DNA of 30,777 nucleotides, taken from the IMG/VR virus record IMGVR_UViG_3300025849_002387, positions 1-30,777 of that record. The stretch is one strand, 5' to 3'. The notes below the pieces were generated by a model, which was not told where the DNA came from, did not search any database, and saw nothing but the letters and a program-made list of their open reading frames with translations. The stretch comes from a virus. A program made the position numbers and the translations under genes. Of the stretch, positions 119-15,517 are shown piece after piece. Positions within the stretch are counted from its first letter, which is position 1; every line of letters begins with the position of its first letter.

Positions 119-1672
119 ATGGACGCAATTGTCAAAAACCTTAACTTCGGCGAAGAAGCCAGAGTTAATGTATTTAAAGGAATAGAAAAACTCACAAGAG
201 CTGTTAGCTCCACACTCGGGGCTAGCGGCAAATGTGTGATGCTTGAGGATCATACTGGAAAGCCCGTTATTACAAAAGATGGTGTTACTGTAGCAGACTC
301 GATAGTCTTGCTTGATCCTATAGAAAATATGGGAGCAACGCTTTTAAAAGAAGCAGCTAGAAAAACAGTTAAAGAAGCAGGTGATGGCACAACAACAGCG
401 ACAGTTTTAGCTCACGCTATACTTGAAGAAGCTTATAAGGTTGCAGATAAAACAAACTCAAGAGAGTTGAAGGACGGTATAAATAAAGCCGTTGAAAATG
501 TGGTTAAGTTTTTGCAGTTAGCATCTGTAGATGTTAAAGGCGATATGATAGATCAAATAGCTACAATATCTACAAACAACGACCCTGAGCTTGGTAAAAT
601 TATAGCAGACGCTTTTAGAGCGGTTGATAACACAGGTGTGGTCATGATGGAAACAGCTTCAGATGGTAAAACATGTGTTGAGGTTGTAGATGGTGTTCAG
701 TATGACAAGGGAATTAAAAATTCTCACTTTATAACTAACAAAGCGGTTAAGACTGCTGAGTTGGAAAAACCATTGGTTTTACTTTTAGAGTCACCAGTGG
801 ATACGGTTAGACAAATACAATCAGTGCTAGAGTATGTAATAAAAAACAACAAACCTTTGCTTATCATAGGCGATTTAGAACAAGGTGTTTTATCAGCTCT
901 GGCAATGAATAAAATGAAAGGAGCCATAAAAGTGAACGTTATTGACGCACCAACTTACGGAATAAGCAAGCAGCAGATGCTTGAAGATCTTTCACTTCTA
1001 ACTGGCGCAACTATTATAAATGAAGATCTTGGAGATGATATGGACATGATACAACCAGAGCACTTAGGATCTTGTGTTAAAAGTATAACATCTCATCAAG
1101 ACACTGTTTTGCAAGTAGCAGAACCCAGCGATGAAGTTTTAAGTGTTATAAGTGATTTAAAGAAAAAGCTTTTAGTAGAGAAAAATCCAAACAACCTTAT
1201 TAAACTTGAAAAAAGATTAGCAATGCTTTCAGCTAAAATAGCTATTGTAAAAGTAGGTGCTAATTCAGAAATAGAATTAAAAGAAAAAACAGATAGAGTA
1301 GAAGACGCTATCTGTGCTACTAAGGCTGCTATTAAAGAAGGGATTGTTCCTGGTGGTGGTATTGCTCTATTAAATGCCGCAACAAACTTAAAACCTAATT
1401 CGATTGGCGAAACAGTGTTACTTGAAGCCATAAAAGCACCATTCAAAGTTATACTTGAAAATGCAGGTGTTGAAAACGTGGAGACACCAATTAGAAAAGG
1501 GCAAGGTTACAACGTGGTTACAGGAAAAATGGTAAATATGACAAAGTCAGGTATTATAGATCCTTTACTCGTCACTAAGAGCGCTCTTCAAAATGCAGCT
1601 TCCGTAGCAACTACTATTTTATCTACAGATTGTGTAATTAATAATTTAAGAATTAATGAAGGCGGTAGGTAA
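119..1672 (+). CDS. groEL: Phage-encoded chaperonin GroEL (Cpn60)
   Basis: A 517-residue group I chaperonin that forms ATP-driven folding rings in the cytoplasm. Visible signatures are TKDGVTV at residues 52-58 (D54 matches the nucleotide-site Asp52 of E. coli GroEL), GDGTTTATVLA from residue 88 (D89 matches Asp87), and RVEDAICATKAAIKEG plus PGGGIAL in the second equatorial half, whose VED carries the residue equivalent to catalytic Asp398. It is about 30 residues shorter than E. coli GroEL and ends NLRINEGGR, lacking the flexible GGM-repeat tail. The ATG at 119 gives the normal N-terminal length. It is followed by an overlapping groES, the reverse of the usual bacterial order. Sequence divergence and phage neighbours argue for a viral copy, likely used to fold virion or replication proteins. 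Identification is firm; the client proteins are unknown. Confidence 0.96.
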   Translation: MDAIVKNLNFGEEARVNVFKGIEKLTRAVSSTLGASGKCVMLEDHTGKPVITKDGVTVADSIVLLDPIENMGATLLKEAARKTVKEAGDGTTTATVLAHAILEEAYKVADKTNSRELKDGINKAVENVVKFLQLASVDVKGDMIDQIATISTNNDPELGKIIADAFRAVDNTGVVMMETASDGKTCVEVVDGVQYDKGIKNSHFITNKAVKTAELEKPLVLLLESPVDTVRQIQSVLEYVIKNNKPLLIIGDLEQGVLSALAMNKMKGAIKVNVIDAPTYGISKQQMLEDLSLLTGATIINEDLGDDMDMIQPEHLGSCVKSITSHQDTVLQVAEPSDEVLSVISDLKKKLLVEKNPNNLIKLEKRLAMLSAKIAIVKVGANSEIELKEKTDRVEDAICATKAAIKEGIVPGGGIALLNAATNLKPNSIGETVLLEAIKAPFKVILENAGVENVETPIRKGQGYNVVTGKMVNMTKSGIIDPLLVTKSALQNAASVATTILSTDCVINNLRINEGGR

Positions 1673-1916
1673 AAATATAATTATAAAAAAGACAAAACAA
1701 GGAACCACTAAAACAAAAGGTGGTCTTCTCTTGGCAGAAACACATAGAGATGACATTAGGTATATTGAAGCTTCTGTTGTCTCAGCAGGTGATGAAATAA
1801 ACAACTTAGAAAAAGGTAGTGTTATACTATACGATAAACACGCTGGACATAAGATAGAGGTTGACAAAGAAACATATCACGTTATAAAAGTAGTAGACGT
1901 TGTGGTTGTTTTATGA
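1656..1916 (+). CDS. groES: Phage-encoded co-chaperonin GroES (Cpn10)
   Basis: An 86-residue GroES, the lid that caps the GroEL folding chamber. It shows the N-terminal strand (KNIIIKK), a mobile loop ending in GGLLL at residues 22-26 (equivalent to GGIVL of E. coli GroES, which docks on the GroEL apical domain), a central strand EASVVSAGDEI, and KGSVILYDKHAG with EVDKETYHVIKVVDV at the C-terminus. It starts inside the last codons of groEL (17-nt overlap, different frame), so translation is probably coupled and the two proteins co-expressed. The stop overlaps the next start as ATGA. The length is slightly below the 95-97 residues usual in bacteria. Family assignment is secure by motif and by its position next to groEL. 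Confidence 0.93.
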   Translation: MKAVGKNIIIKKTKQGTTKTKGGLLLAETHRDDIRYIEASVVSAGDEINNLEKGSVILYDKHAGHKIEVDKETYHVIKVVDVVVVL

Positions 1917-2359
1917 GGCGTTTAGAAACAGACGATATAAAAAACCTTAATCTTATGAAACATTATAGGATTATAAGAAAATGGGCTTGTAGGAATAACG
2001 ATTTAAACGATGCAGATTTAGAGTTATTAATATACTTAGATTGCATAGATATGTTTAGAAAAAAAGACTTTCAAGATGGTTCATATTCTTATAGCTGGGA
2101 CAACCGTCGCTGGAACAGAATGTTGAAACAAGGTTGGATAGTTGTTTGGAGAAAAAGAAACAGAACAACTCAAAAATACCATATATATAAAACATCTATT
2201 AAGTGTAAGCATTTGATAAAAAGAATTTATCGCATGATGCTTGGTTTAGAGGATATACCCACAAGCAACCATAGAAACAGTATTATGAAGGGTAAAACAT
2301 ATACAGATAAAGTTCTTATAACTTCTATTAAAAACGTAAACAAAGATAAAAACAGATAA
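1913..2359 (+). CDS. Putative winged-helix protein
   Basis: A basic 148-residue protein whose first 105 residues look like a compact helical/winged-helix domain: helix HYRIIRKWACR (17-27), an acidic helix DADLELLIYLDCIDMF (33-48), then SWDNRRWNRMLKQGWIVVWR (61-80) with a basic hairpin KRNRTTQKYHIYK that resembles a wing. MarR-like and other winged-helix proteins share this order, so DNA binding and regulation are plausible, but no defining motif is present. The basic, Asn-rich tail is probably disordered. The start overlaps the groES stop as ATGA, so it is likely translated with the chaperonins. I recall similar proteins in marine Bacteroidota phages; their function is not known to me. An RNA-binding or structural role is possible. 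Confidence 0.7.
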   Translation: MRRLETDDIKNLNLMKHYRIIRKWACRNNDLNDADLELLIYLDCIDMFRKKDFQDGSYSYSWDNRRWNRMLKQGWIVVWRKRNRTTQKYHIYKTSIKCKHLIKRIYRMMLGLEDIPTSNHRNSIMKGKTYTDKVLITSIKNVNKDKNR

Positions 2360-2360
2360 A

Positions 2361-2711
2361 ATGAAAGCTAACAATAACGAATCTCCGCTAGAATTTGGTT
2401 TTGGTGGTAATATGGCAGCGATGATTCAAGCCGCTAGAAATAGAGCTCCAGGTCGAGGTCAAACCGCGGCAATGTTAGGTGGTAGTCTTAGTGGTCAAGC
2501 AAAAGAATTATTTGAAGCAAGCCAAACTGCTCAAAACCCCGAAATGACCAATACACCACCTGCTCCATATAACACTCTTGGTGGTGCTCAACCGGTTTTT
2601 AATCCTCAAGCGCAGCAAGCAGCTCAAGGTGTTTATGGTAGTTGTGATCAAAGACAAAACGCAGTAGGTGCAACTCCTATATTTAAGAAAAAATGCAACA
2701 AAAAATACTAA
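2361..2711 (+). CDS. Small Gln/Ala/Pro-rich protein of unknown function
   Basis: A 116-residue low-complexity protein, rich in Ala, Gln, Asn and Gly, with no membrane segment. Near its N-terminus it has ESPLEFGFGGNM (7-18), which resembles the SPL element found in several neighbouring small proteins. A helix AAMIQAARNRAPGRG follows, then a disordered Gln/Pro stretch. Two cysteines lie near the C-terminus (C95 and C112), in a basic tail KKKCNKKY. One base separates it from the preceding stop, so it is part of the same operon. No family recognised. A minor virion or assembly role is only a guess from context. Confidence 0.6.
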   Translation: MKANNNESPLEFGFGGNMAAMIQAARNRAPGRGQTAAMLGGSLSGQAKELFEASQTAQNPEMTNTPPAPYNTLGGAQPVFNPQAQQAAQGVYGSCDQRQNAVGATPIFKKKCNKKY

Positions 2712-2712
2712 T

Positions 2713-2910
2713 ATGAAAAACATTAAAAACTTAAAAGTAGACCTATCAGGTCAGGTAGGTGAAAATGCTATTTGGGACGGACCATTAAGCAAAGAAGGTT
2801 TTCCAATGGGAAAAGGTTCTAGCTCAGGTAAAGATGGATTAGAGGTTTCTAAGTACCCTTGTGGTCACGGAGGAGGACCAATTACACAACGCGCTAAAGC
2901 TTTTAAATAA
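2713..2910 (+). CDS. 65-residue Gly-rich protein with a PCGHGGG motif
   Basis: The frame is open further upstream, but the ATG at 2713 is the better start: it follows the previous stop directly and avoids a 44-nt overlap. The product has a short hydrophilic N-terminus (MKNIKNLKVDLSGQVG), a central GPLSKEGFPMGKG segment and a C-terminal YPCGHGGGPITQRAKAFK. The single Cys-His pair could bind metal with a partner but is not a zinc finger on its own. The stop overlaps the next start as TAATG, indicating coupling. The family is unknown; similar tiny proteins are common in this part of related phage genomes as far as I recall. Confidence 0.6.
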   Translation: MKNIKNLKVDLSGQVGENAIWDGPLSKEGFPMGKGSSSGKDGLEVSKYPCGHGGGPITQRAKAFK

Positions 2911-3560
2911 TGGAAAATTTATCTAAATTCTCAGGGCCTTTTATGCAAAAAAGTCCTTTGTATAATAAAGCTGATAGACTTAGAGAAAGAGCTAAAAGAA
3001 GATCTAAAAGATTAGGTGAAACACAAGATTACGATTACGAAGATGCTAAAGTTCAAAAGCTTTTATCTAAAGCTGAAAAAGCTGAAAAATCAAAGCCTTC
3101 ATTAGAAAACGATGCTAGAGTTGATGCGTCTTATGAAAGACCTGATATGCCGCCTGTTAACTACGGAACACCATTAAATCAAGTTTCTCCTCAATATGGG
3201 TCGGCCTCTGCATACGTGTCTATTCAACCAGCTTTGCAAAACTTGCAAAAAAAAGCAGTTGCTAACTCTGAAGAAGACACTACTAAAGGTAAAAAATCCA
3301 AACAAGTCGTAAACACTTCTACCGGTGACCAAGTTGGTGCTACTAAAAAAGAACAAGATATTTCTAAGCCAACACGAGACTCTGAATTAGCAAGGGAAAA
3401 ATACAATACTTTTCAAGATTCAACTAGAGTTCAATCTATAGATGGTGATTTTTATAGAGTAGATGGCAAAGGTAATATACATTCTATGAAGTTTGACAAA
3501 TTAGGAAAAAGAGTATTTGACATGGATAAGGTTTCTAAAGCCATGGGAAAATTTTATTAA
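2910..3560 (+). CDS. Basic, partly disordered protein with SPL N-terminal tag
   Basis: A 216-residue hydrophilic protein. It begins with FSGPFMQKSPLYNKADRL (7-24), a PF...SPL patch shared in looser form with neighbouring small proteins, followed by a strongly basic helix RERAKRRSKRLG (25-36) that could contact DNA or RNA. The middle (about 60-165) is rich in Lys, Ser, Thr and Pro and is likely disordered. The C-terminal 45 residues look folded: DGDFYRVDGKGNIHSMKFDKLGKRVFDMDK could form a small beta unit. No enzyme motif is present. Its position in the small-gene array and TAATG coupling to the gene before suggest a shared role, possibly as a virion-associated protein. Function unknown. Confidence 0.65.
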   Translation: MENLSKFSGPFMQKSPLYNKADRLRERAKRRSKRLGETQDYDYEDAKVQKLLSKAEKAEKSKPSLENDARVDASYERPDMPPVNYGTPLNQVSPQYGSASAYVSIQPALQNLQKKAVANSEEDTTKGKKSKQVVNTSTGDQVGATKKEQDISKPTRDSELAREKYNTFQDSTRVQSIDGDFYRVDGKGNIHSMKFDKLGKRVFDMDKVSKAMGKFY

Positions 3561-3716
3561 ATGAAATCAAAAGGCTTAGGAGACAGCATAGAAAAATTTA
3601 CTAAAACTACTGGTATCAAAAAAGTAGTGGACGCGTTTAGCGAAAAGTTAAACGTGCCTTGTGGTTGTGCTGCTAGAAAAGGAGCATTAAACAAAATATT
3701 TCCTTATAAAAAATAA
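3561..3716 (+). CDS. 51-residue protein with a PCGC motif
   Basis: A short frame directly abuts the preceding stop (TAA then ATG) and ends with TAA at 3714-3716. The protein begins KGLGDSIEKFTKTTGIKKVV, an amphipathic helix pair, and continues with VPCGCAARKGALNKIFPYKK, whose CxC followed by basic residues could bind a metal ion or form a reactive pair. Codon use is like the neighbours, and the tight spacing on both sides (next ATG after 3 nt) supports expression. I recall comparable small LGD-x-IEK proteins with a CGC motif in other phages, but no function. It is too short for standard gene callers and may be missed. Confidence 0.65.
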   Translation: MKSKGLGDSIEKFTKTTGIKKVVDAFSEKLNVPCGCAARKGALNKIFPYKK

Positions 3717-3719
3717 TAT

Positions 3720-4028
3720 ATGGCTTTCAAACTAAATAACCCACCTTTCCACATGGACAACACTCCAATATATCGAGTAGATATGGAAGATGGTGTTATG
3801 GGAAAAGCTAATAACAATGGTTCTATAACCATAAATAAAGATTTACATCCAGACGATGTAGAAGATGTAGTTGCTCACGAAAAAATTCATTTAGAACAAA
3901 TGGACAGAGGTGATTTAGATTACGACGACAAATACGTTTATTGGAAAGGTAAAAAATATTCACGAGCACAAATGAAAGAAGGTGCTAAAAACCTACCTTG
4001 GGAAGCTGAGGCTTATAGAAGATCATAA
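3720..4028 (+). CDS. Small zinc metallopeptidase (HEKIH)
   Basis: A 102-residue protein with the zinc-peptidase signature VVAHEKIHLEQM: H53 and H57 are predicted zinc ligands and E54 the general base. Downstream, LPWEAEAYR (92-100) offers E95 or E97 as a third ligand, giving the HExxH...E layout of small gluzincins. The N-terminus NNPPFHMDNTPIYRVD (6-21) resembles the proline patch of neighbouring proteins and ITINKDLHPDDVED leads into the active helix. There is no signal peptide or membrane segment. Possible jobs are processing of virion proteins, destruction of a host protein, or lysis support; the sequence does not decide. It lies 0.6 kb upstream of the holin. The stop overlaps the next start (TAATG). 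Peptidase fold fairly sure, substrate unknown. Confidence 0.78.
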   Translation: MAFKLNNPPFHMDNTPIYRVDMEDGVMGKANNNGSITINKDLHPDDVEDVVAHEKIHLEQMDRGDLDYDDKYVYWKGKKYSRAQMKEGAKNLPWEAEAYRRS

Positions 4029-4237
4029 TGAAGACATCTAAGACAGGTTATTTAAAAAACAGCCCTGATGTTAACAAGCCTCAAAATATTATACAAGGAG
4101 GCTATATAACAATGAAAGGAGTCGAGTTTAAAGTACTAGGTACTGATGATCGAGGATATACAAAAATAATGTACCCAGGATATGATTATATATTTCCTGG
4201 TGCTAAATACGTAATAGAGACACCAATTAAAAAATAA
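4028..4237 (+). CDS. 69-residue protein, beta-rich, unknown function
   Basis: A small protein starting with MKTSKTGYLKNSPDVNKPQN, in which NSP recalls the SPL patch of its neighbours, followed by an all-beta-looking body: GGYITMKGVEFKVLG, then YTKIMYPGYDYIFPGAKYV. A tandem turn-strand pattern such as this suits a small barrel or SH3-like fold. No catalytic motif or membrane segment is seen. It overlaps the metallopeptidase stop by one base, so the two are probably translated together. It might be an inhibitor, substrate or virion partner of the peptidase, but that is only context. Family not recognised. Confidence 0.6.
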   Translation: MKTSKTGYLKNSPDVNKPQNIIQGGYITMKGVEFKVLGTDDRGYTKIMYPGYDYIFPGAKYVIETPIKK

Positions 4238-4242
4238 AAAAA

Positions 4243-4611
4243 ATGAAACCATTTACAAACAAATATTCAATTGCAGCTGGATCACCTCTACATTTAGGAG
4301 GATCTAAAAAAAACAACGGGGACGGCGATACAGCTTTTAGCGATTCAAAAAAAGACGGAAACATGGTTTCAAGAGGTCTTGTAGCTGCTAGGAATGCTTT
4401 AGATCCTAGCGCTGAACGAGCTTTAGGAAATCAAAACAGTAGCAATCAAATGTTTGATTATGACGGCGACGGTGATACAATGTTTAATGACTCTAATAAC
4501 GATGGAACTATGCTTTCAAGAGGTCTTATAGCAGCAAGAAACTACTTAGATCCTAGCGCTGAACGAGCTCTTGGAAATGAAAATAGCAAAAGTCAGCTTT
4601 TTGATCTTTAA
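4243..4611 (+). CDS. Protein of two 49-residue repeats with DGDGD loops
   Basis: A 122-residue protein. The head MKPFTNKYSIAAGSPLHLGG (1-20) carries the PF...SPL patch. The rest is two tandem copies of one unit (residues 27-75 and 76-122): DGDT-x-F-x-DS-x-x-DG, then [ML]-x-SRGL-x-AARN-x-LDPSAERALGN. The DYDGDGDTMFND stretch looks like an acidic, calcium-binding-type loop (dockerin or EF-hand flavour), and the SRGLxAARN helix is invariant. Copies match at DNA level over short stretches, so the duplication is either recent or selected. The following gene, the holin, abuts it directly. I do not recognise a family; possible roles include a virion protein with metal-dependent assembly. Confidence 0.68.
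   Translation: MKPFTNKYSIAAGSPLHLGGSKKNNGDGDTAFSDSKKDGNMVSRGLVAARNALDPSAERALGNQNSSNQMFDYDGDGDTMFNDSNNDGTMLSRGLIAARNYLDPSAERALGNENSKSQLFDL
4321..4608 (+). repeat. Two tandem 147-nt coding repeats
   Basis: Unit 1 covers 4321-4467 and unit 2 4468-4608 (slightly shorter at the C-terminus). A 24-nt stretch beginning TTAGATCCTAGCGCTGAACG is identical at 4399-4422 and 4546-4569, and TTCAAGAGGTCTT is identical at 4368-4380 and 4515-4527, both pairs exactly 147 nt apart, which keeps the reading frame (49 codons). Between these islands the units differ at synonymous and non-synonymous sites. Confidence 0.85.
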
Positions 4612-5010
4612 ATGAAAAAAATAATTCAATGGCTAACAGGTGGCGTTATCAAAGAAGTTGGTGACGTCATCGACAAGCTTACTACAACCGAAGAAGAAAG
4701 GTTAGAAGTAAAGAAACAAATACAACAGATACTAGAAGACGCAGATAGCAAAGCTCAAGAAGAAGTTAGCAAGCGTTGGGAAGCAGATATGAAGTCTGAT
4801 AGTTTTTTAAGTAAAAACATTAGACCTTTTATATTAATATATTTAACTGTAATATTCACGTCTTTATGTTTCTTTGATGGTAACATAGGTGAGTTTGAAA
4901 TAGCTGAAGAATATATACCAATATTTCAAACATTACTAGTAACCGTATATGGAGCTTACTTTGTAGGTAGAACTTGGGAAAAAGCAAAATCAATAACAAA
5001 CAATAAATAA
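4612..5010 (+). CDS. Phage holin, GTA-type three-transmembrane family
   Basis: A 132-residue membrane protein. It has a short hydrophobic N-terminal stretch (IIQWLTGGVIKEVGDVI, 4-20), a long charged coiled-coil (about 22-65), and two clear membrane helices at about 72-88 (PFILIYLTVIFTSLCFF) and 102-118 (IPIFQTLLVTVYGAYFV). The sequence SKNIRPFILIYL and the closing YGAYFVGRTWEKAK match the pattern of the gene-transfer-agent-type 3TM holin family. Such holins form pores in the inner membrane at the end of infection. No endolysin is recognisable beside it; the peptidase at 3720 is the nearest enzyme. It directly abuts the repeat protein's stop. Confidence 0.82.
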   Translation: MKKIIQWLTGGVIKEVGDVIDKLTTTEEERLEVKKQIQQILEDADSKAQEEVSKRWEADMKSDSFLSKNIRPFILIYLTVIFTSLCFFDGNIGEFEIAEEYIPIFQTLLVTVYGAYFVGRTWEKAKSITNNK

Positions 5011-5015
5011 ATAAA

Positions 5016-5495
5016 ATGGCAAACAATCAACCAATCAGTGGTATACCAGTTGTAAGCTTTAGTGACATACTAAACATACCCAAACCCGGTGTTATAGTGT
5101 CTGGAACTAATACCACGTCTGGAGTAACATTAACAGACGCTACTAAAAATTTTACAAAATCAGCTACAAACAAACAAGGTTACATCATATCATCAGGAGA
5201 CGTTGTTTATGACATTACTACTGGTGTTTTTATCGAAATAACTTCTGTCACTAGTGCTACAGAAATATTATTATCTTCATCTATAGCTGTTGGTGATTAT
5301 GAGATATTTAAAGGAAATAAATTAAAATCAGATGGTTATAGTTTATTCGTTGGAACTGGAGGTAATTTAATTTTAGAAACTGTAAATGGACAAGAAGTAA
5401 CACTTAAAAACGTTGCTAACAACTCTTATGTACCTCTTCAAGTGGCTAAAGTAAAATCTGGTACAACAGCACTTGACATCGTAGCACTTAACTAA
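5016..5495 (+). CDS. Putative virion decoration or spike protein
   Basis: A 159-residue beta-rich protein without charged clusters. The middle (DVVYDITTGVFIEITSVTSATEILLSS) alternates like a small barrel. The last 40 residues are the clearest part: NGQEVTLKNVANNSYVPLQV followed by AKVKSGTTALDIVALN. The pattern x-VT-x-KNV-x-x-x-S-[YF]-[VL]-P-[LV]-QV ending in GTTA-x-x-IVAL recurs in small virion surface proteins of many tailed phages, from memory. It precedes two further genes of the fibre cluster. Assigning it to the capsid surface or to the tail is not possible from sequence. Confidence 0.62.
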   Translation: MANNQPISGIPVVSFSDILNIPKPGVIVSGTNTTSGVTLTDATKNFTKSATNKQGYIISSGDVVYDITTGVFIEITSVTSATEILLSSSIAVGDYEIFKGNKLKSDGYSLFVGTGGNLILETVNGQEVTLKNVANNSYVPLQVAKVKSGTTALDIVALN

Positions 5496-5496
5496 C

Positions 5497-5649
5497 ATGC
5501 CTAGTATATTAGCAAACGCAAACGCTATATTAGCGATACCAAATACACCAGGAATTGCTGTTGGTCCCATAACTGGATATATATTGCAAGAAAATGGAGT
5601 CGATAAAATTATTGCAGAAAACGGAACTGATTTAATGATCAGAGAATAA
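5497..5649 (+). CDS. 50-residue protein in the fibre cluster
   Basis: A short frame one base after the previous stop, ending TAA at 5647-5649. The N-terminal half, ILANANAILAIPNTPGIAVG, is hydrophobic; the C-terminal half YILQENGVDKIIAENGTDLM contains two copies of an E-N-G unit (QENGVDKIIAENGTDL) that resembles the LQENGDxLLLE repeats found near the ends of some phage fibre proteins. It may be a virion accessory piece or a fibre tip/attachment peptide. It lies 12 nt before the fibre gene, with which it is probably co-translated. Confidence 0.6.
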   Translation: MPSILANANAILAIPNTPGIAVGPITGYILQENGVDKIIAENGTDLMIRE

Positions 5650-8033: not shown

Positions 8034-8253
8034 GGAACTAATAAAAGTAGCTAAAGAAGCTATCGTTGATTCAGGAGATGATATCACAGCAGATAGATTA
8101 AAAAACGCCGCAGCTACAAAGAAGTTAGCTATATTTGATGCGTTTGAAATACTAGGTAGATTAGAAGCTGAAGAGGCATTGTTAAACGAAAAACCTGCAG
8201 AAGTAAAGGAAGAGAAATCTTTTAGAGGTTTTGCTGAAGGGAGATCTAAATAA
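7978..8253 (+). CDS. Small helical protein next to TerL; candidate small terminase
   Basis: A 91-residue, mostly helical protein: TKLNIIQAGQVAVEELIKVA (6-25), then ADRLKNAAATKKLAIFDAFE and ILGRLEAEEALLNEK, ending in FRGFAEGRSK. Its position immediately before the large terminase (stop and start share TAATG) is where a small terminase subunit often lies, and a helical oligomerising core would fit. But no helix-turn-helix DNA-binding element is evident and 91 residues is short, so this role is only a candidate. The ATG at 7978 lies inside the previous gene, giving a 56-nt overlap; there is no later in-frame ATG to use instead. Confidence 0.6.
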   Translation: MNTKETKLNIIQAGQVAVEELIKVAKEAIVDSGDDITADRLKNAAATKKLAIFDAFEILGRLEAEEALLNEKPAEVKEEKSFRGFAEGRSK

Positions 8254-10463
8254 TGTACGAGCAAACTCTATATAAAGTCTTAAAAGACTACGTAAAACCA
8301 CACGCTATAGCTAAAATGAATAAAGCTAAAAAGTGGAGATACGGTTACAATGAGGATTATGATATTATTGTTATAAGTAAAACCGGAGAAATAGGTGAAA
8401 TTTATGAAATACAAGATTTAAAAATAGCTTTACCAAAAGCTGATAATGTACATACATTTGAAGATGACAGGTGGAAGCACACTGAATACCCAAAGGAACT
8501 TAGTAAAATCAAGTCAGTATTTGATTGGGAAGAATACCCTTTGGACTTTAAAGAAAAATGGTATGATTACATTGATGAAGAATTTAATAGAAGAGAACAA
8601 GGCTTTTGGTTCTATAATAAAGGTTTGGCTACTTACATTACTGGTACTAACTATATGTACTTGCAGTGGAGCAAAATTGATGTTGGGCAACCAGACTTTA
8701 GGGAATCAAACAGATTATTCTATTTATTCTGGGAAGCTTGTAAAGCCGACCCGCGCTGCTATGGCATGTGCTACCTTAAAAATAGACGGTCAGGTTTTTC
8801 ATTTATGGCAAGTGGGGAAACGGTTAACCAAGCAACAATATCTACGGACGCACGCTTTGGTATACTCTCGAAATCTGGACCCGATGCAAAGAAGATGTTT
8901 ACTGACAAAGTTGTCCCAATATCAGTTAACTATCCCTTCTTCTTCAAACCGATCCAAGACGGTATGGATAGGCCAAAGACAGAACTGGCGTACAGAGTAC
9001 CAGCATCAAAGTTCACAAGGAGAAAACTCGATTCCAACGAGAAGCTCAAGGAAATTACCGGTCTCGACACAACGATCGACTGGAAGAACACAGGCGACAA
9101 CTCGTACGATGGGGAAAAATTAAAACTACTAGTACACGATGAAAGTGGAAAGTGGGAGAGACCTACAAATATATTAAACAACTGGCGAGTAACCAGAACT
9201 TGTTTAAGATTAGGTTCTAGAGTTATTGGTAAGTGTATGATGGGATCAACATCAAACGCTTTAGATAAAGGAGGAGGTAACTTTAAAAAACTTTACAATG
9301 ATTCAGACGTTACGCAAAGAAACGCCAATGGACAGACACGCTCAGGACTCTATTCTTTGTTCATACCTATGGAATGGAACTACGAAGGATACATTGATTC
9401 TTATGGCTTTCCTGTATTCAACACACCAAAAAAAGGGGTTGAAGATCCACACGGAACAAAAATAACACAAGGCGTAATAGAGTATTGGGATAATGAAGTG
9501 GAAGGTTTAAAGTCTGATCAAGACAGTTTAAATGAATTTTACAGACAGTTTCCACGTACAACAAAGCACGCGTTTAGAGATGAATCAAAACAATCTCTAT
9601 TTAACTTGACAAAGATATACGAGCAAATAGATTTTAATGAGGATTTAAAAAACTCCATTAACGTTACTCAAGGAAGCTTTCAATGGCAAAACGGAGAGAA
9701 AGATACGAAAGTTATATTTGTACCAAATAAAAGTGGTAGATTCAGAGTTTCTTGGATTCCACCTTTAAATCTCCAAAATCGTGTAATAATAAAAGGTGGT
9801 TTAAAATATCCAGGCAATGAACATTGTGGAGCTTTTGGATGTGATAGTTACGATATATCAGGTACAGTTGATAAAAGAGGTTCTAATGGATCTTTGCATG
9901 GTTTAACTAAGTTTAGCATGGAGGACGTGCCTCCAAATCATTTCTTTTTAGAATATATAGCTAGACCTCAAACCGCTGAGATATTTTTTGAAGATGTTTT
10001 AATGGCTTGTGTTTTTTACGGAATGCCAATACTAGCAGAGAATAATAAACCTAGATTATTATATCATTTTAAAAGAAGAGGTTATAGAAAGTTCTCTATA
10101 AACAGGCCAGATAGAAAGTATAATAAATTATCAGTAACAGAGAAAGAGTTAGGTGGAATACCAAACTCTAGTGAAGATATAAAGCAAGCACACGCTGCTG
10201 CTATTGAAACTTACATAGAAAGTTTTGTGGGATTAAAAGAAACAGGTTATGGTGATATGTTTTTCCAAAGAACACTGGAAGACTGGGCTAGATTTAACAT
10301 AAACAACAGAACAAAGCATGATGCTTCTATTAGTTCTGGTTTAGCTATTATGGCTTGTAATAAACATAGATACACGCCGAGTGCGCCTTTAAAAACCAAC
10401 GCGGTTAATTTAGGTATAAAAAGATACGACAATACAGGACTTACGTCTAAAATAAAAAGTTAA
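8253..10463 (+). CDS. terL: Terminase large subunit (packaging ATPase-nuclease)
   Basis: A 736-residue packaging motor that translocates DNA into the prohead and cuts it. The ATPase domain carries a deviant Walker A KNRRSGFS (176-183) with the lysine at the front, as in lambda gpA (KSARVGYS), and Walker B LLVHDESG with D296 and E297. The coupling motif MMGSTSN follows at about 330. The nuclease part shows FGCDSYD (D531, D534), fitting the first acidic residue of the RNase H-like terminase fold. A segment at 8745-9118, between Walker A and B, has unusual codon use (listed separately). It lies directly before the portal gene, with no gap. The whole frame is intact. Family and role are clear; the packaging strategy (cos or headful) cannot be told. 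Confidence 0.93.
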   Translation: MYEQTLYKVLKDYVKPHAIAKMNKAKKWRYGYNEDYDIIVISKTGEIGEIYEIQDLKIALPKADNVHTFEDDRWKHTEYPKELSKIKSVFDWEEYPLDFKEKWYDYIDEEFNRREQGFWFYNKGLATYITGTNYMYLQWSKIDVGQPDFRESNRLFYLFWEACKADPRCYGMCYLKNRRSGFSFMASGETVNQATISTDARFGILSKSGPDAKKMFTDKVVPISVNYPFFFKPIQDGMDRPKTELAYRVPASKFTRRKLDSNEKLKEITGLDTTIDWKNTGDNSYDGEKLKLLVHDESGKWERPTNILNNWRVTRTCLRLGSRVIGKCMMGSTSNALDKGGGNFKKLYNDSDVTQRNANGQTRSGLYSLFIPMEWNYEGYIDSYGFPVFNTPKKGVEDPHGTKITQGVIEYWDNEVEGLKSDQDSLNEFYRQFPRTTKHAFRDESKQSLFNLTKIYEQIDFNEDLKNSINVTQGSFQWQNGEKDTKVIFVPNKSGRFRVSWIPPLNLQNRVIIKGGLKYPGNEHCGAFGCDSYDISGTVDKRGSNGSLHGLTKFSMEDVPPNHFFLEYIARPQTAEIFFEDVLMACVFYGMPILAENNKPRLLYHFKRRGYRKFSINRPDRKYNKLSVTEKELGGIPNSSEDIKQAHAAAIETYIESFVGLKETGYGDMFFQRTLEDWARFNINNRTKHDASISSGLAIMACNKHRYTPSAPLKTNAVNLGIKRYDNTGLTSKIKS
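8745..9118 (+). other. Segment of terL with foreign base and codon use
   Basis: Within terL, this stretch switches from the genome's A/T-ending codons to C/G-ending ones: runs such as TTCTTCTTC, and many ATC, AAC, GAC, TAC, AAG, CTC and TCG. A hand count gives about 45% G+C over 8881-9120 (108 of 240), against about 35% in the 120 nt after it. The reading frame and motifs stay intact. It spans the ATPase core between the Walker A and Walker B motifs. A recombination tract from a relative with other codon habits is the simplest reading. Confidence 0.75.
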
Positions 10464-12851
10464 ATGAATATATATACTAATACTAGAAGTGCTTTCCCTA
10501 GCCAAGTGGTCGGTGATTTAGAAAAAGCTAGCTTGAAATATGGCAAGCAAGTTGCTCAGGCTATAGAAGGAGAGTGGTTTAGTCAAGGTAGAACTACAGG
10601 GAATAGATATTTAACTAATTGGAATAATTTTAACCAATTAAGACTATACGCTAGAGGAGAGCAAAGTACACAAAAATATAAAGATGAGTTGTCTATAAAT
10701 GGCGATTTGTCTTATTTAAACTTAGACTGGACTCCGGTACCCATTTTGTCTAAATTTGTTGACATTGTGGTTAATGGTATATCGCAAAAGTCTTACGATA
10801 TAAAAGCTTACGCGCAAGACCCTTCTTCTGTAAAGAAAAGAACTGATTACGCTTCTAAGCTTCATGAAGACATGCTAGCTAAAGAGTATTTAGAAAATCT
10901 AAAGCAGACGCTAGGTATTGACGACTATCAATCACCAAGCCCAGGTGTTGTGCCAGAGACAAAGGAAGACTTAGAACTGCATATGCAACTTAGTTACAAG
11001 CAGTCAATTGAAATAGCTCAAGAAGAAGCTATATCAACTGTTTTAGCTAAAAACAAATACGATCTAACTAGACGTAGACTTAATATGGATTTAGCCGTTT
11101 TAGGTATTTCTGCAGTTAAGACTAGTTTTAATACATCTGAAGGAATAGTTGTTGATTATGTTGATCCAGCTTACATGGTTTACTCGTACACGGAAGATCC
11201 TAACTTTGAAGACATATATTATGTAGGCGAAGTAAAATCTGTTACAATACCAGAGCTTAAAAAAGAGTTTCCTAATACTTCACAAGAAGAGTTAGAATTA
11301 ATTGAAAAAATGCCTGGTAATAAATCATATATACAAGGTTACGGTAACTACGATAATAATACAGTGCAATTATTGTACTTTGAATATAAAACATACCAAA
11401 ACCAAACGTTTAAAATAAAACAAACAGATCAAGGTTTATTAAAAGCTATAGAAAAACCAGACTCTTTTAACCCACCAGAAAGTGACATGTTTGAAAGAGT
11501 TTCAAGATCTATAGAGGTTTTGTACAGTGGTGTAAAGGTTTTAGGGACTGAAACCATGCTTAAGTGGGAATTAGCAGAGAATATGTCAAGACCAATGGCT
11601 GATACTACTAAAGTGCGTATGAATTATTCTATATGTGCACCTAGAATCTATAAGGGACGCATTGAGTCTCTTGTTGGTAAATGTACTGGTTTTGCAGATA
11701 TGATTCAAATAACGCATTTAAAACTTCAGCAGGTCATATCTAGAATGGTACCAGATGGTGTTTATTTAGACATGGACGGATTAGCGGAGGTTGATTTAGG
11801 TAATGGCACGAATTATAATCCAGCCGAGGCTTTAAACATGTATTTTCAAACAGGTAGTGTTGTTGGTAGGTCGTTAACACAAGACGGTGAAATGAACGCT
11901 GGTAAAATACCTGTTCAAGAGTTAAACAGCTCTGGAGGTAATGCTAAAATAGCATCTTTAATACAAACGTATCAATACTATTTACAAATGATACGCGATG
12001 TAACAGGGTTAAACGAAGCTAGAGATGGTAGTTTACCTGATAGAAATACACTGGTGGGCTTACAAAAATTGGCCGCTAACGCTTCGAACGTAGCCACTAG
12101 ACACATAACTCAGTCTAGCTTATACTTAACGTTAAATACAGCTGAAAACATAGCGTTAAAAATAGCTGACGCATTAGAGTTTCCTTTAACTAGGAATTCT
12201 TTGAAAAACTCCATATCGACTTATAACATTAAAACTTTAGACGAAATAGTTGAATTAAATCTGCATGATTTTGGTATATTCTTAGAGTTAGATCCAGACG
12301 AAGAAGAGCAAGCTCAATTAGAGGCTAATATACAAGCTTCTATACAACAAGGCGGTATAGATCTTGAAGACGCTATTGATCTTAGACAGATCAAAAACCT
12401 TAAGCTTGCTAATCAAATGCTTAAAATTAAGCGTAAGCAAAAGCAGGAGCAAGATATGTTAGTGCAGCAATCTAACATACAAGCGCAAGCTGACGCTCAA
12501 GCTAGTACTGCAGAAAAAACAGCAATGGCGGAAGTTCAAAAACAAGAAGCTATTAGTGGTTCAAAAGTTCAATTTGAACAAGCTAAAAGTCAATTGGAAA
12601 TACAGCGTATGCAGATAGCTTCTCAAATAGAAATGCAAAAAATGCAGCAACAATTCCAGTACGATATGCAGCTTAAACAAATAGATACGCAATCTATTAA
12701 CCAAAAAGATGTGGTTAAAGAAGATAGAAAAGACAAGCGTATTAAAATGGAGGGCACGCAGCAAAGTAAAATGATAAGTCAAAGACAAAACGATGGACCT
12801 TCAATAAACTTTGAATCCACAGCAGATGTGGAGCCAACTGCTTTTTTATAA
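10464..12851 (+). CDS. Portal protein
   Basis: A 795-residue protein directly after terL (TAA then ATG). It has the size and layout of portals of crAss-like and related podoviruses: DLSYLNLDWTPVPILSKFVD at 81-100 and a following VVNGISQKSYDIKAYAQDP, which matches the pattern I recall for that group. The middle holds the clip/stem region; from about 640 to 760 is a Gln-rich helix with QSNIQAQADAQAS and QMQKMQQQFQYDMQ-type repeats, likely the helical crown or barrel entering the head. It would form a 12-subunit ring at one vertex, dock terminase, and later the connector. No signal or membrane segment. Identification rests on position, size and motif memory. Confidence 0.86.
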   Translation: MNIYTNTRSAFPSQVVGDLEKASLKYGKQVAQAIEGEWFSQGRTTGNRYLTNWNNFNQLRLYARGEQSTQKYKDELSINGDLSYLNLDWTPVPILSKFVDIVVNGISQKSYDIKAYAQDPSSVKKRTDYASKLHEDMLAKEYLENLKQTLGIDDYQSPSPGVVPETKEDLELHMQLSYKQSIEIAQEEAISTVLAKNKYDLTRRRLNMDLAVLGISAVKTSFNTSEGIVVDYVDPAYMVYSYTEDPNFEDIYYVGEVKSVTIPELKKEFPNTSQEELELIEKMPGNKSYIQGYGNYDNNTVQLLYFEYKTYQNQTFKIKQTDQGLLKAIEKPDSFNPPESDMFERVSRSIEVLYSGVKVLGTETMLKWELAENMSRPMADTTKVRMNYSICAPRIYKGRIESLVGKCTGFADMIQITHLKLQQVISRMVPDGVYLDMDGLAEVDLGNGTNYNPAEALNMYFQTGSVVGRSLTQDGEMNAGKIPVQELNSSGGNAKIASLIQTYQYYLQMIRDVTGLNEARDGSLPDRNTLVGLQKLAANASNVATRHITQSSLYLTLNTAENIALKIADALEFPLTRNSLKNSISTYNIKTLDEIVELNLHDFGIFLELDPDEEEQAQLEANIQASIQQGGIDLEDAIDLRQIKNLKLANQMLKIKRKQKQEQDMLVQQSNIQAQADAQASTAEKTAMAEVQKQEAISGSKVQFEQAKSQLEIQRMQIASQIEMQKMQQQFQYDMQLKQIDTQSINQKDVVKEDRKDKRIKMEGTQQSKMISQRQNDGPSINFESTADVEPTAFL

Positions 12852-12861
12852 AGTAAACAAT

Positions 12862-12883
12862 TATTTAATTATATTATATTATG
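12862..12883 (+). promoter_or_regulatory. 22-nt AT leader at the scaffold gene start
   Basis: The 22 nt from 12862 to 12883, TATTTAATTATATTATATTA then TG, including the start codon, are identical to 15630-15651 at the start of the gene after the capsid protein. No Shine-Dalgarno sequence is present. Identity over 22 nt at two separate start codons suggests a functional translation or transcription element of late genes. Confidence 0.55.
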
Positions 12884-14074
12884 TCAGTAGAAACAAAACA
12901 AGAAGGTGAATTTACCTTAAAAGGTAGAAATAAAAAAACACCAAAAAAGTTAGTCAAAAACGAAGAAATTACCAAAGTAGATCTAACAAAACCAGAAGCA
13001 CAAGGCGAGGTTGTACCAGATGTAACTAAAGTGGTAATTCCAAAAGAAGAAAAAAATGCCGTTCAAGCACAAGAGACAAATGATAGCAATGCTGTTGTCG
13101 AAGAACCCAAAGACAGTAGCAACAGCGAAACAGTGGTTGAAGAAGTACGGACCACCGAAAAAACAGTAGAAGAATCTCCAATCCAAATCATTGAGGAGGT
13201 AATAGAGACTGAACAAGAGTTAAAAGAAGCTATAAGAGATGAAAAAGTTTTAGGTAAGCAATTACCAGAAAACATTGAAAAGCTGGTTAGCTTTATGGAA
13301 GAGACTGGTGGAACGATTGAAGACTATACAAGACTCAACGCGGATTACTCTAATGTAGATGATAAAACATTATTAAAAGAATATTACAAAAAAAATAAAC
13401 CTTATCTAGATAATTCAGATGTAGAGTTATTATTAGAAGACTTTGATTACGACGAAGATCTAGACGAGGATAGAGATATACGTAAGAAAAAACTTGCGTT
13501 TAAAGAAGAAGTTGCAAAAGCCAAAGGCTTTTTAGAAGAAACCAAGGTTAAATATTACGATGAAATCAAGTTGAGATCAAATGTAAACCCTGAAGCTAAA
13601 CAAGCAATAGACTTTTTCAATAGATATAATAAGCAGCAAGAAGTAGCTAAGCAACAACACCAAGCTTTTAAGGAAAATACCAAAAAGCTTTTTACTGATG
13701 ATTTCGAAGGTTTCGATATTAATGTTGGTGAAAAGAAATTTAGGTATAAAATACAGAACGCTAATAAAGTTGCAGAGAACCAATCAAACATAACAAACCT
13801 TGTCGGGAAGTTCCTAGGCAGTAATGGTGACGTTGTTGACCCCATTGGTTATCACAAAGCTATTTATGCCGCTGAAAACGTAGATAAGATTGCCGCTCAT
13901 TTCTATGAGCAAGGAAAAGCTGAAGCCGTTAAAGAAGTTGTAAATAAATCTAAAAACCTAAGTGATACTAAAGCTAGATCAACTCAGGGAGATGTATTTG
14001 TAAACGGATTTAAGGTTAGAGCTATTTCAGGTGCTGATTCTACAAAACTAAGAATAAAAAAATTTAAAAACTAA
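12881..14074 (+). CDS. Putative head scaffold protein
   Basis: A 397-residue, strongly acidic protein between portal and major capsid protein, the usual place of the scaffold. Residues 1-115 are disordered and rich in Glu, Val, Lys and Thr (for example KNEEITKVDLTKPEAQGEV). A helical region follows (about 110-290, with KKKLAFKEEVAKAKGFLEE and KQQEVAKQQHQAFKENTKKL), and the C-terminal third has IYAAENVDKIAAHFYEQGKAE and a basic tail TKLRIKKFKN, which could bind the capsid shell as scaffold tails do in other phages. No protease motif is present. It would line the prohead and leave or be degraded before packaging. Confidence 0.72.
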   Translation: MSVETKQEGEFTLKGRNKKTPKKLVKNEEITKVDLTKPEAQGEVVPDVTKVVIPKEEKNAVQAQETNDSNAVVEEPKDSSNSETVVEEVRTTEKTVEESPIQIIEEVIETEQELKEAIRDEKVLGKQLPENIEKLVSFMEETGGTIEDYTRLNADYSNVDDKTLLKEYYKKNKPYLDNSDVELLLEDFDYDEDLDEDRDIRKKKLAFKEEVAKAKGFLEETKVKYYDEIKLRSNVNPEAKQAIDFFNRYNKQQEVAKQQHQAFKENTKKLFTDDFEGFDINVGEKKFRYKIQNANKVAENQSNITNLVGKFLGSNGDVVDPIGYHKAIYAAENVDKIAAHFYEQGKAEAVKEVVNKSKNLSDTKARSTQGDVFVNGFKVRAISGADSTKLRIKKFKN

Positions 14075-14086
14075 AATTAAAAAATT

Positions 14087-15517
14087 ATGGCAACATCATT
14101 AACCCCACAATTTGGTTCAATCCAGCCGTCTCAAAAACAACAGACGTTGGATACCAATTATTTACAATTTAACGATCCAGCTGGAGCTGACTTTAGTTCT
14201 TTTGCTCAACAATATCTTCCTGAGATTTATGAGCAAGAAGTAGAGCGTTACGGAAACCGTACACTTTCTGGATTCTTACGAATGGTAGGCGCTGAAATGC
14301 CTATGACATCTGATCAAGTTATTTGGTCTGAACAAAATAGATTACACGTAGCTTATGACAGTGCTACTTTTGCAGTAGCAGCTGGACCACCAGCTGTTTC
14401 TACTATCACAGTTCTTGCAGCTGACACTAACGTTATTTCTGTTGGTGACACTGTAGTTGTTTTAGATGATAACGGAGCTGAAGCTAAATGTTACGTTAGC
14501 GCTAGTACAACTGGTCTTGGTGGTAACATCGTAGTAGAGCCTTATACTTCTACTGATTTAACTGCTGCTGGATTAGTAGGAACCGTTAAAGTATTCGTTT
14601 ATGGTTCTGAATATGACAAAGGATCACAAACTCCTAACTACAACAGCATTCAGCCAGCTTTTACTTCTTACTCTAACACTCCAATTATCATTAGAAGCCA
14701 GTACCAAGTAAATGGTTCTGACATGGCTCAGATCGGTTGGGTTGAGATTGCTACTGAAGACGGATCTTCTGGATACTTATGGTATTTAAAAGCTGAATCT
14801 GAAACTCGTTTACGTTTTGAGGATTACTTAGAAATGTCTGTAGTTGAAGGTGAAATTGCTGCTGCAGGTTCTGCCGCTTTAACAGCTAGCTCGAAAAAAG
14901 GTACTCAAGGTCTTTTTGCAGCTATCAAAGATAGAGGTAATGAGATGGTAGGATTTGCTCCGACAGCAGGTACTGTAGATGATTTTGACGATATCTTAAG
15001 AAACTTAGACACTCAAGGAGCTATTGAAGAAAACATGTTATTCTTAAACAGAGATATGACTTTAGCCTTTGACGATATGCTTGCTGGTCTTTCTTCTGGA
15101 GCTGATGGTGGTACTGCTTATGGATTGTTTGAAAACTCTGAGGACATGGCTTTAAATCTTGGATTTAGCGGTTTCCGTAGAGGATCTTACGACTTTTATA
15201 AGACTGACTGGAAATACTTAAACGATGCTTCAACACGTGGTGGGTTCACAAACACTGCTGCTATTGAAGGTGTTTTAATTCCAGCTGGAACTTCAACAGT
15301 ATACGATCAAGTATTAGGTACAAACATCAGACGTCCATTCTTACACGTACGATACAGAGCTTCTCAAGCTGATGATCGTCGTATGAAGTCTTGGTTGACT
15401 GGTTCAGCAGGAGGTGCTTTCACATCTGACTTAGATGCGATGCAAGTTAACTTCTTATCTGAAAGATGTTTAGTTACTCAAGCTGCTAACAATTTTGTTA
15501 TTTTTACTGCAGTGTAA
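14087..15517 (+). CDS. Major capsid protein
   Basis: A 476-residue protein with the place (after the scaffold), size and codon bias of the main shell protein. Its codons are the most C/T-balanced of the window (GGT, GCT, AAC, TTC), as expected for a highly expressed gene. The N-terminus is short and flexible, then EIYEQEVERYGNRTLSGFLR (about 44-63), reminiscent of the N-arm/E-loop region of HK97-fold capsids; a beta-rich insert at about 95-175 (AADTNVISVGDTVVVLDDNG) may be a surface domain; the end DLDAMQVNFLSERCLVTQA fits the P-domain helix. No cleavage site is evident. A hairpin terminator lies directly downstream. Confidence 0.87.
   Translation: MATSLTPQFGSIQPSQKQQTLDTNYLQFNDPAGADFSSFAQQYLPEIYEQEVERYGNRTLSGFLRMVGAEMPMTSDQVIWSEQNRLHVAYDSATFAVAAGPPAVSTITVLAADTNVISVGDTVVVLDDNGAEAKCYVSASTTGLGGNIVVEPYTSTDLTAAGLVGTVKVFVYGSEYDKGSQTPNYNSIQPAFTSYSNTPIIIRSQYQVNGSDMAQIGWVEIATEDGSSGYLWYLKAESETRLRFEDYLEMSVVEGEIAAAGSAALTASSKKGTQGLFAAIKDRGNEMVGFAPTAGTVDDFDDILRNLDTQGAIEENMLFLNRDMTLAFDDMLAGLSSGADGGTAYGLFENSEDMALNLGFSGFRRGSYDFYKTDWKYLNDASTRGGFTNTAAIEGVLIPAGTSTVYDQVLGTNIRRPFLHVRYRASQADDRRMKSWLTGSAGGAFTSDLDAMQVNFLSERCLVTQAANNFVIFTAV

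Follow-up and report, generated by a model that had tools for sequence, protein, structure and literature searches.

A short Ser-Pro-Phe/Leu head recurs on unrelated small late proteins of one phage clade and may dock them in the virion

In one clade of phages, a short N-terminal head built around Ser-Pro-Phe or Ser-Pro-Leu recurs on small late proteins whose bodies are otherwise unrelated, and the selected use of this head is well supported by its enrichment across relatives, its conservation within protein families and its divergence at synonymous codon positions. The clade is represented here by an IMG/VR virus record, 30,777 bases long, analysed over its whole length and referred to as the window. 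On balance, the sequences and their placement favour, if not strongly, a docking motif for virion cargo, the partner of which would be the capsid interior or its core.

The heads of the window lie in a cassette of small genes between the groES-like gene and the holin (Table 1; genes are named by their start positions). The core motif, [ST]P[LFMIV] within the first 30 residues, is carried by four of the ten cassette ORFs from 1913 to 5495, as NESPL in 2361, FSGPFMQKSPL in 2910, PPFHMDNTPI in 3720 and KPFTNKYSIAAGSPL in 4243. Shuffling the first 30 residues of each of these ten proteins gives a mean of 0.44 matches, and four are reached in 0.035% of trials (P=0.00035). A sequence-only reading of this DNA had listed five neighbouring proteins with a related proline patch near their start; each of the five peptides is found in the gene named and four of them fit the one motif, whereas the fifth, in gene 4028, does not belong to the set. 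In relatives, the protein at the place of 2361 begins with MNSPLNQFGSIAS, MSKSPVNFGG or MSNSPLKLFG. The 65-aa body encoded next to it has no tag in the window and carries MKKSPLKMLEDK in locus L119, indicating that a tag has been gained or lost on one and the same body. The 2910 family contains a further conserved internal copy of the motif, NYGSPLN. The type of head found on the 4243 protein recurs on different bodies in L032, L046 and L008; its own body consists of two tandem 49-aa repeats (identity 36/49), each opening with a DGDGDTxFxDSxxDG (DxDGDG) loop that resembles the calcium-binding loop of EF-hands or dockerins.

Table 1. Features of the window, with the small-gene cassette and its tagged genes
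Feature	Position	Strand	Remarks
GroEL gene	119-1672	+	borders small-gene cassette upstream
GroES-like gene	1656-1916	+	borders cassette upstream; homologous genes in MW202828 annotated groEL and chaperonin 10 kd
Small-gene cassette	about 1913-4611	+	between groES-like gene and holin
Tagged 116-aa Gly/Ala/Gln-rich protein	2361-2711	+	SPL at residues 8-10 (2382-2390)
65-aa protein	2713-2910	+	no tag in window; same body tagged in L119
Tagged 216-aa basic low-complexity protein	2910-3560	+	head residues F7, M12, S15 and P16 invariant in alignment of 6 homologues
Bipartite tag FSGPFMQKSPL of 2910 protein	2928-2960	+	residues 7-17; spacing-6 type, like SSPFMAKSPLN
Internal copy NYGTPLN of 2910 protein	3159-3179	+	residues 84-90; N84, P88 and L89 invariant in alignment
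Small HExxH metallopeptidase-like protein	3720-4028	+	tag-like head MAFKLNNPPFHMDNTPIY at 3720-3773
Beta-domain protein, 69 aa	4028-4237	+	N-terminal NSPDV; not tagged
Tagged 122-aa protein	4243-4611	+	head MKPFTNKYSIAAGSPL at 4243-4290, then two 49-aa repeats
Holin, three transmembrane segments	4612-5010	+	untagged; PHROG 3427 E=4e-29; PF11351 above cut-off; borders cassette downstream
TerL, portal, 397-aa charged protein, major capsid protein	8253-15517	+	lineage markers, possible tag partners

The protein encoded by 3720 has H53, E54 and H57 invariant in 26 homologues, and its structure model shows a compact domain (mean pLDDT 86) in which residues 1-16 form a coil. Foldseek returns weak zincin matches to selecase, abylysin and IrrE at probabilities of 0.9-0.97 with E values of 0.17 or worse, and the HExxH motif together with the zincin-like modelled fold make the protein a candidate zincin metallopeptidase. 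Gene 4028 is outside the tag set because the SPD of its YLKNSPDV patch, with Asp after SP, belongs to the conserved 65-aa beta domain; S12, P13 and D14 are invariant in 20 homologues, and NSPDV was rejected as a tag. The 4028 protein, modelled at a pLDDT of 69, has a weak match to the virion structural protein phrog_36695 (E=1.6e-4). In 11 loci (L002, L008, L009, L017, L026, L027, L042, L047, L054, L056 and L057) the 4028 domain and the next tagged gene are fused in-frame, so that the tag would there be internal, between two domains. Tagged bodies fused behind another domain also keep the SP patch directly before the body, as in DMKNNSPANKKEFPEIK... and DMESPLELKDACYKK... (L274; L170 3963-4217).

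Across relatives, about 300 loci were gathered, the queries being the 3720 peptidase, TerL, a pair of tagged bodies and a pair of tag patterns, with ORFs called mechanically from ATG. Proteins were clustered into body families on the sequence beyond residue 30, and counts were family-weighted because the loci are relatives of one another; remote homology among the bodies could mean that fewer of these families are independent. The first 159 loci contain 213 non-redundant ORFs with a head of this kind on the plus strand versus 3 on the minus strand, and among small families the head is found on 43 of 178 versus 9 expected (maximum 17 in 200 shuffles). The motif in this first set is at background beyond residue 30, and the last 30 residues are likewise at background (3.9 of 158 families). 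In the enlarged set, the core motif is present in 91.9 of 548 body families versus 30.1 after shuffling (maximum 39.4) and the bipartite form in 35.8 versus 1.4 (maximum 5.6), and in 22 families with three or more members, half or more of the members carry the tag. As the core motif was set after inspection of the data, an unbiased tripeptide scan was added, in which SPF, KSP, SSP and SPL rank as the top four for N-terminal enrichment. Neither of the two outcomes named as refuting the sequence-only reading occurred: the patch is conserved in homologues, and its frequency lies far above chance.

The family-weighted consensus of the head is F-x3-F-x-[AK]-K-S-P-[LF]-N-Q, and its commonest form is bipartite, MSSPFQKKFSAKSPLN. 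Two copies of the motif occur in about a third of families, at a spacing of 10 (as in MSSPFQKKFSAKSPLN) or of 6 (SSPFMAKSPLN). In the FTAW family the core is retained in 47 of 49 members though head lengths differ. No genome-specific dialect of the tag is seen, as tags within a genome are no more alike than tags between genomes (118/500 permutations). Basic character is more pronounced in tagged than in untagged bodies, with a median net charge of +5.5 versus 0.0 per 100 aa. Two tagged bodies share the domain DUF6321, which is found without a tag in pelagiphages, Methylophilales phages and cyanophages, lying between scaffold and capsid genes in HTVC200P and close before TerL in MEP402. The FTAW body is similarly untagged in gut crassviruses, where in two of the three cases its gene adjoins that of the portal and is close to that of the MCP. 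The crassvirus FTAW homologues have a different common head of their own (PSYKDGGIHIKKKNRGKF / PSYKNGGIHIKKKNRGKF; L198 2471-2689, L200 2438-2689), and this may be a parallel head in gut crassviruses.

Tags are concentrated in late gene cassettes. Among small ORFs of six records, 35 of 140 late ones are tagged versus 3 of 102 early ones (p=1.3e-6). In the records G005 (68.9 kb) and G006 (60.7 kb), every tag is on an accessory gene of the late strand if occasional regex hits on dubious ORFs are set aside, and their early, lysis, tail-fibre, packaging and replication genes are essentially untagged. One cassette of G005 lies between groES and the holin position and the other at the end of the late operon, behind a giant gene. 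The second tagged cassette, behind the giant virion gene, is located at 65878-68850 and 1-1557 in G005 and at 2275-5085 in L170; that of the window would fall past its 3′ end. When loci are ranked by how closely their TerL matches that of the window, tags persist to an identity of about 73%, and below 70% none of 151 ORFs carries one (14 loci, including MW202828, elemo, phi38:1 and phi13:2), which makes the tag an innovation of one clade, a clade that encodes GroEL. A conserved gene of about 200 aa beginning MKSPFYFI in relatives is a chance match to the regular expression and was excluded from the counts of clade restriction and of peptidase association. No tags were found in loci lacking the lineage markers, and a 20-aa tag query against cultured phages gave no match. 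An occurrence of tags in another phage lineage was considered and rejected, as the four contigs that had suggested it, without the markers in view, carry the same MCP (71-75%) and simply show the second cassette.

After the holin, the genes of the window follow in the order TerL, portal, a 397-aa charged protein that is possibly a scaffold or core protein, and MCP, and then further virion genes. Cultured relatives by TerL and MCP are the Flavobacterium elemo, Cellulophaga phi38:1/Calle and related phages, and the tagged phages are a large uncultured group of marine, podovirus-like and probably flavobacterial phages. In the consulted part of its description, 'group 2' of marine Flavobacteriaceae phages has a GroEL gene and phi38:1-type structural proteins (PMC5332604). 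The GroEL gene and the elemo/phi38:1-type TerL and MCP of the window agree with this group, the tagged phages having the GroEL gene and phi38:1-like TerL, portal and MCP in common with it, and the two are likely the same. Common heads are not mentioned for 'group 2' in that part of the source, in which respect its description differs from the present finding.

Common heads could be a functionless by-product of gene shuffling, with 5′ ends copied between neighbours, and both the highly variable gene content of the cassettes and the near-identical heads on some neighbours (NKHSIAAGSPLH is present twice in L032) are in keeping with such copying. Similar tags on unrelated bodies of the same genome, however, use the same codon at 52% of identical residues versus 45-46% by codon-usage chance, and their serine codons alternate between TCN and AGY. 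With synonymous sites near saturation, the heads are not recent DNA copies and their similarity is held at the protein level, which argues against a shuffling by-product and equally against a nucleotide signal. The core moreover survives changes in head length, and early genes are without such heads, making shuffling a most improbable explanation. It is very unlikely that the tag serves chiefly as a site cleaved or recognised by the small HExxH peptidase of the cassette; the peptidase family, which bears a related head, was picked up in 62 of 68 tagged loci by a search that overlooks known copies such as that of L066, but its association with tags within the clade is not significant under this imperfect detection (p=0.12) and its catalytic activity is putative.

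Other partners for the head can be envisaged outside the capsid interior. Recruitment to a site in the infected cell, such as the membrane, the nucleoid or a replication or assembly site, would suit the many basic bodies, which are like DNA- or membrane-binding proteins, and any receptor of short linear motifs is conceivable; however, the small early genes, active in the cell, seldom carry a tag and the tags are limited to late genes of one clade, and this explanation is unlikely. About as unlikely, though a genuine rival, is binding to the phage's own GroEL/GroES, by which small basic late proteins would be folded or sequestered and not packaged. The heads are short hydrophobic/proline peptides, and groEL and groES adjoin the cassette in the window, as they do in most tagged loci showing that region, yet the elemo phages and MW202828 have GroEL without tags, the second tagged cassette lies far off behind the giant gene, and many bodies, being small or disordered, do not look like obvious clients of GroEL. 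Docking on the particle exterior or tail as decoration, or a role as mutual assembly glue, would fit the late-operon position, the resemblance of the neighbouring gene 4028 to part of a virion structural protein and the avidity suggested by two spaced copies, but is quite unlikely given that basic low-complexity bodies and a metallopeptidase fold seem unlike known decoration proteins.

That so many exchangeable late proteins bear one short, unstructured head under selection speaks for a common docking partner, and the absence of tags from small early genes, together with the placement of the same bodies among head genes elsewhere, leads to reading this partner as the capsid interior or core. 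As a docking motif for virion cargo, the short and unstructured head of this clade would anchor a large, interchangeable set of small late proteins to a single assembly component encoded by the phage, most likely the inner capsid face or the core/scaffold, and these passengers would so be packed into the particle for delivery alongside the DNA. Of the sorting tag first proposed from the window, the common head on unrelated bodies has held up, while the capsid destination is suggested indirectly by late accessory genes, basic bodies and untagged homologues near head genes. The untagged relatives with related capsids (elemo, phi38:1 and MW202828) count against the cargo reading and indicate that the function of the tag is dispensable for the capsid type. 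Further points against it are the lack of a genome-specific dialect of tag and receptor and the 11 loci in which in-frame fusion to the 4028 domain would place the tag internally. A fuller proposal, to which we attach a little less than even confidence, is that in this abundant clade the Ser-Pro-Phe/Leu head forms a sorting code of its own, unrelated to the T4 signal, by which an open-ended and quickly exchanged set of small proteins (roughly 4-12 per genome, from two late cassettes) would enter the virion to be injected, no classical prohead protease being involved.

To our knowledge, there are few systems, T4 foremost, in which the addressing of cargo to the phage head is understood in detail. 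The consensus of the T4 internal-protein propeptides includes a Glu cleavage site; the head consensus has no conserved Glu and, in an unaligned comparison, departs from the T4 consensus. The search for an S78 or ClpP-type prohead protease in six partial records gave no match while its positive controls worked, and a search for an S77 protease, run without a positive control, likewise gave none. In T4, the capsid targeting sequence (CTS) is carried by the internal proteins IPI-III and Alt, with the first 10 residues of IPIII sufficing for packaging, and is cleaved off by the prohead protease gp21 (PMC9026906). Both the T4 CTS and the SPF/SPL head are short N-terminal peptides on different-bodied, phage-encoded passengers that are non-structural, those of the present clade being putatively packaged; the SPF/SPL head differs in being Ser-Pro-hydrophobic, often bipartite and present on far more bodies. 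The targeting peptides of encapsulins dock cargo inside an HK97-fold shell through a short motif in an unstructured terminus, mostly C-terminal with occasional N-terminal forms such as the TVGSL ferredoxins (PMC8346489). They are LxxGSL-type peptides of a bacterial compartment with demonstrated shell binding, whereas the head is N-terminal, follows another consensus and would dock in a virion. The head would act in the manner of the T4 CTS and is akin in principle to the encapsulin peptides; given the unlike sequence, the lack of an S78/ClpP match in the six partial records and the presumptive nature of the binding, it is classed neither as a T4 CTS nor as an encapsulin peptide.

Crassviruses are, like the tagged phages, podovirus-like phages of Bacteroidota, and non-structural proteins are stored in their particle. 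In the part of the source at hand, the virion cargo of phi-crAss001, gp45 to gp50, consists of large conserved proteins of 60-277 kDa, and no short common N-terminal head is described for it (PMC10172136); the tagged proteins are far smaller. No earlier description of the SPF/SPL tag was found in the literature searched, which comprised open-licence papers. If the fuller proposal of a sorting code is true, hundreds of 'hypothetical' marine phage proteins would become recognisable as injected cargo by sequence alone. Such a readable tag would predict which of the many uncharacterised small proteins from the late genes of ocean phages accompany the DNA into the host, would offer modular protein loading into another capsid type and would explain the clustering of unrelated, fast-changing genes.

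The MCP of the tagged clade has a faintly tag-like N-terminus (window 14087-14150; MxLTPQFGxIxPSQ, sometimes SPLFGxIxPS, as in the MCPs of L116 and L148), and the MCPs of MW202828, elemo and phi38:1 are without one. The MCP and portal N-termini (MxLTPQFGxIxPSQ and NSAFPSQVV) are not claimed as versions of the tag, being suggestive in few members only. Downstream of the holin, an ORF of 50 aa at 5497-5649 (MPSILANANAILAIPN...), under the 60-aa limit for listing, is conserved in relatives with 6 members. A related phage region with a TerL identity of 66% (L368, CP070801.1 861146-883347) lies within a deposited complete archaeal chromosome of Aenigmatarchaeota, where it is probably a mis-assembly or contaminant.
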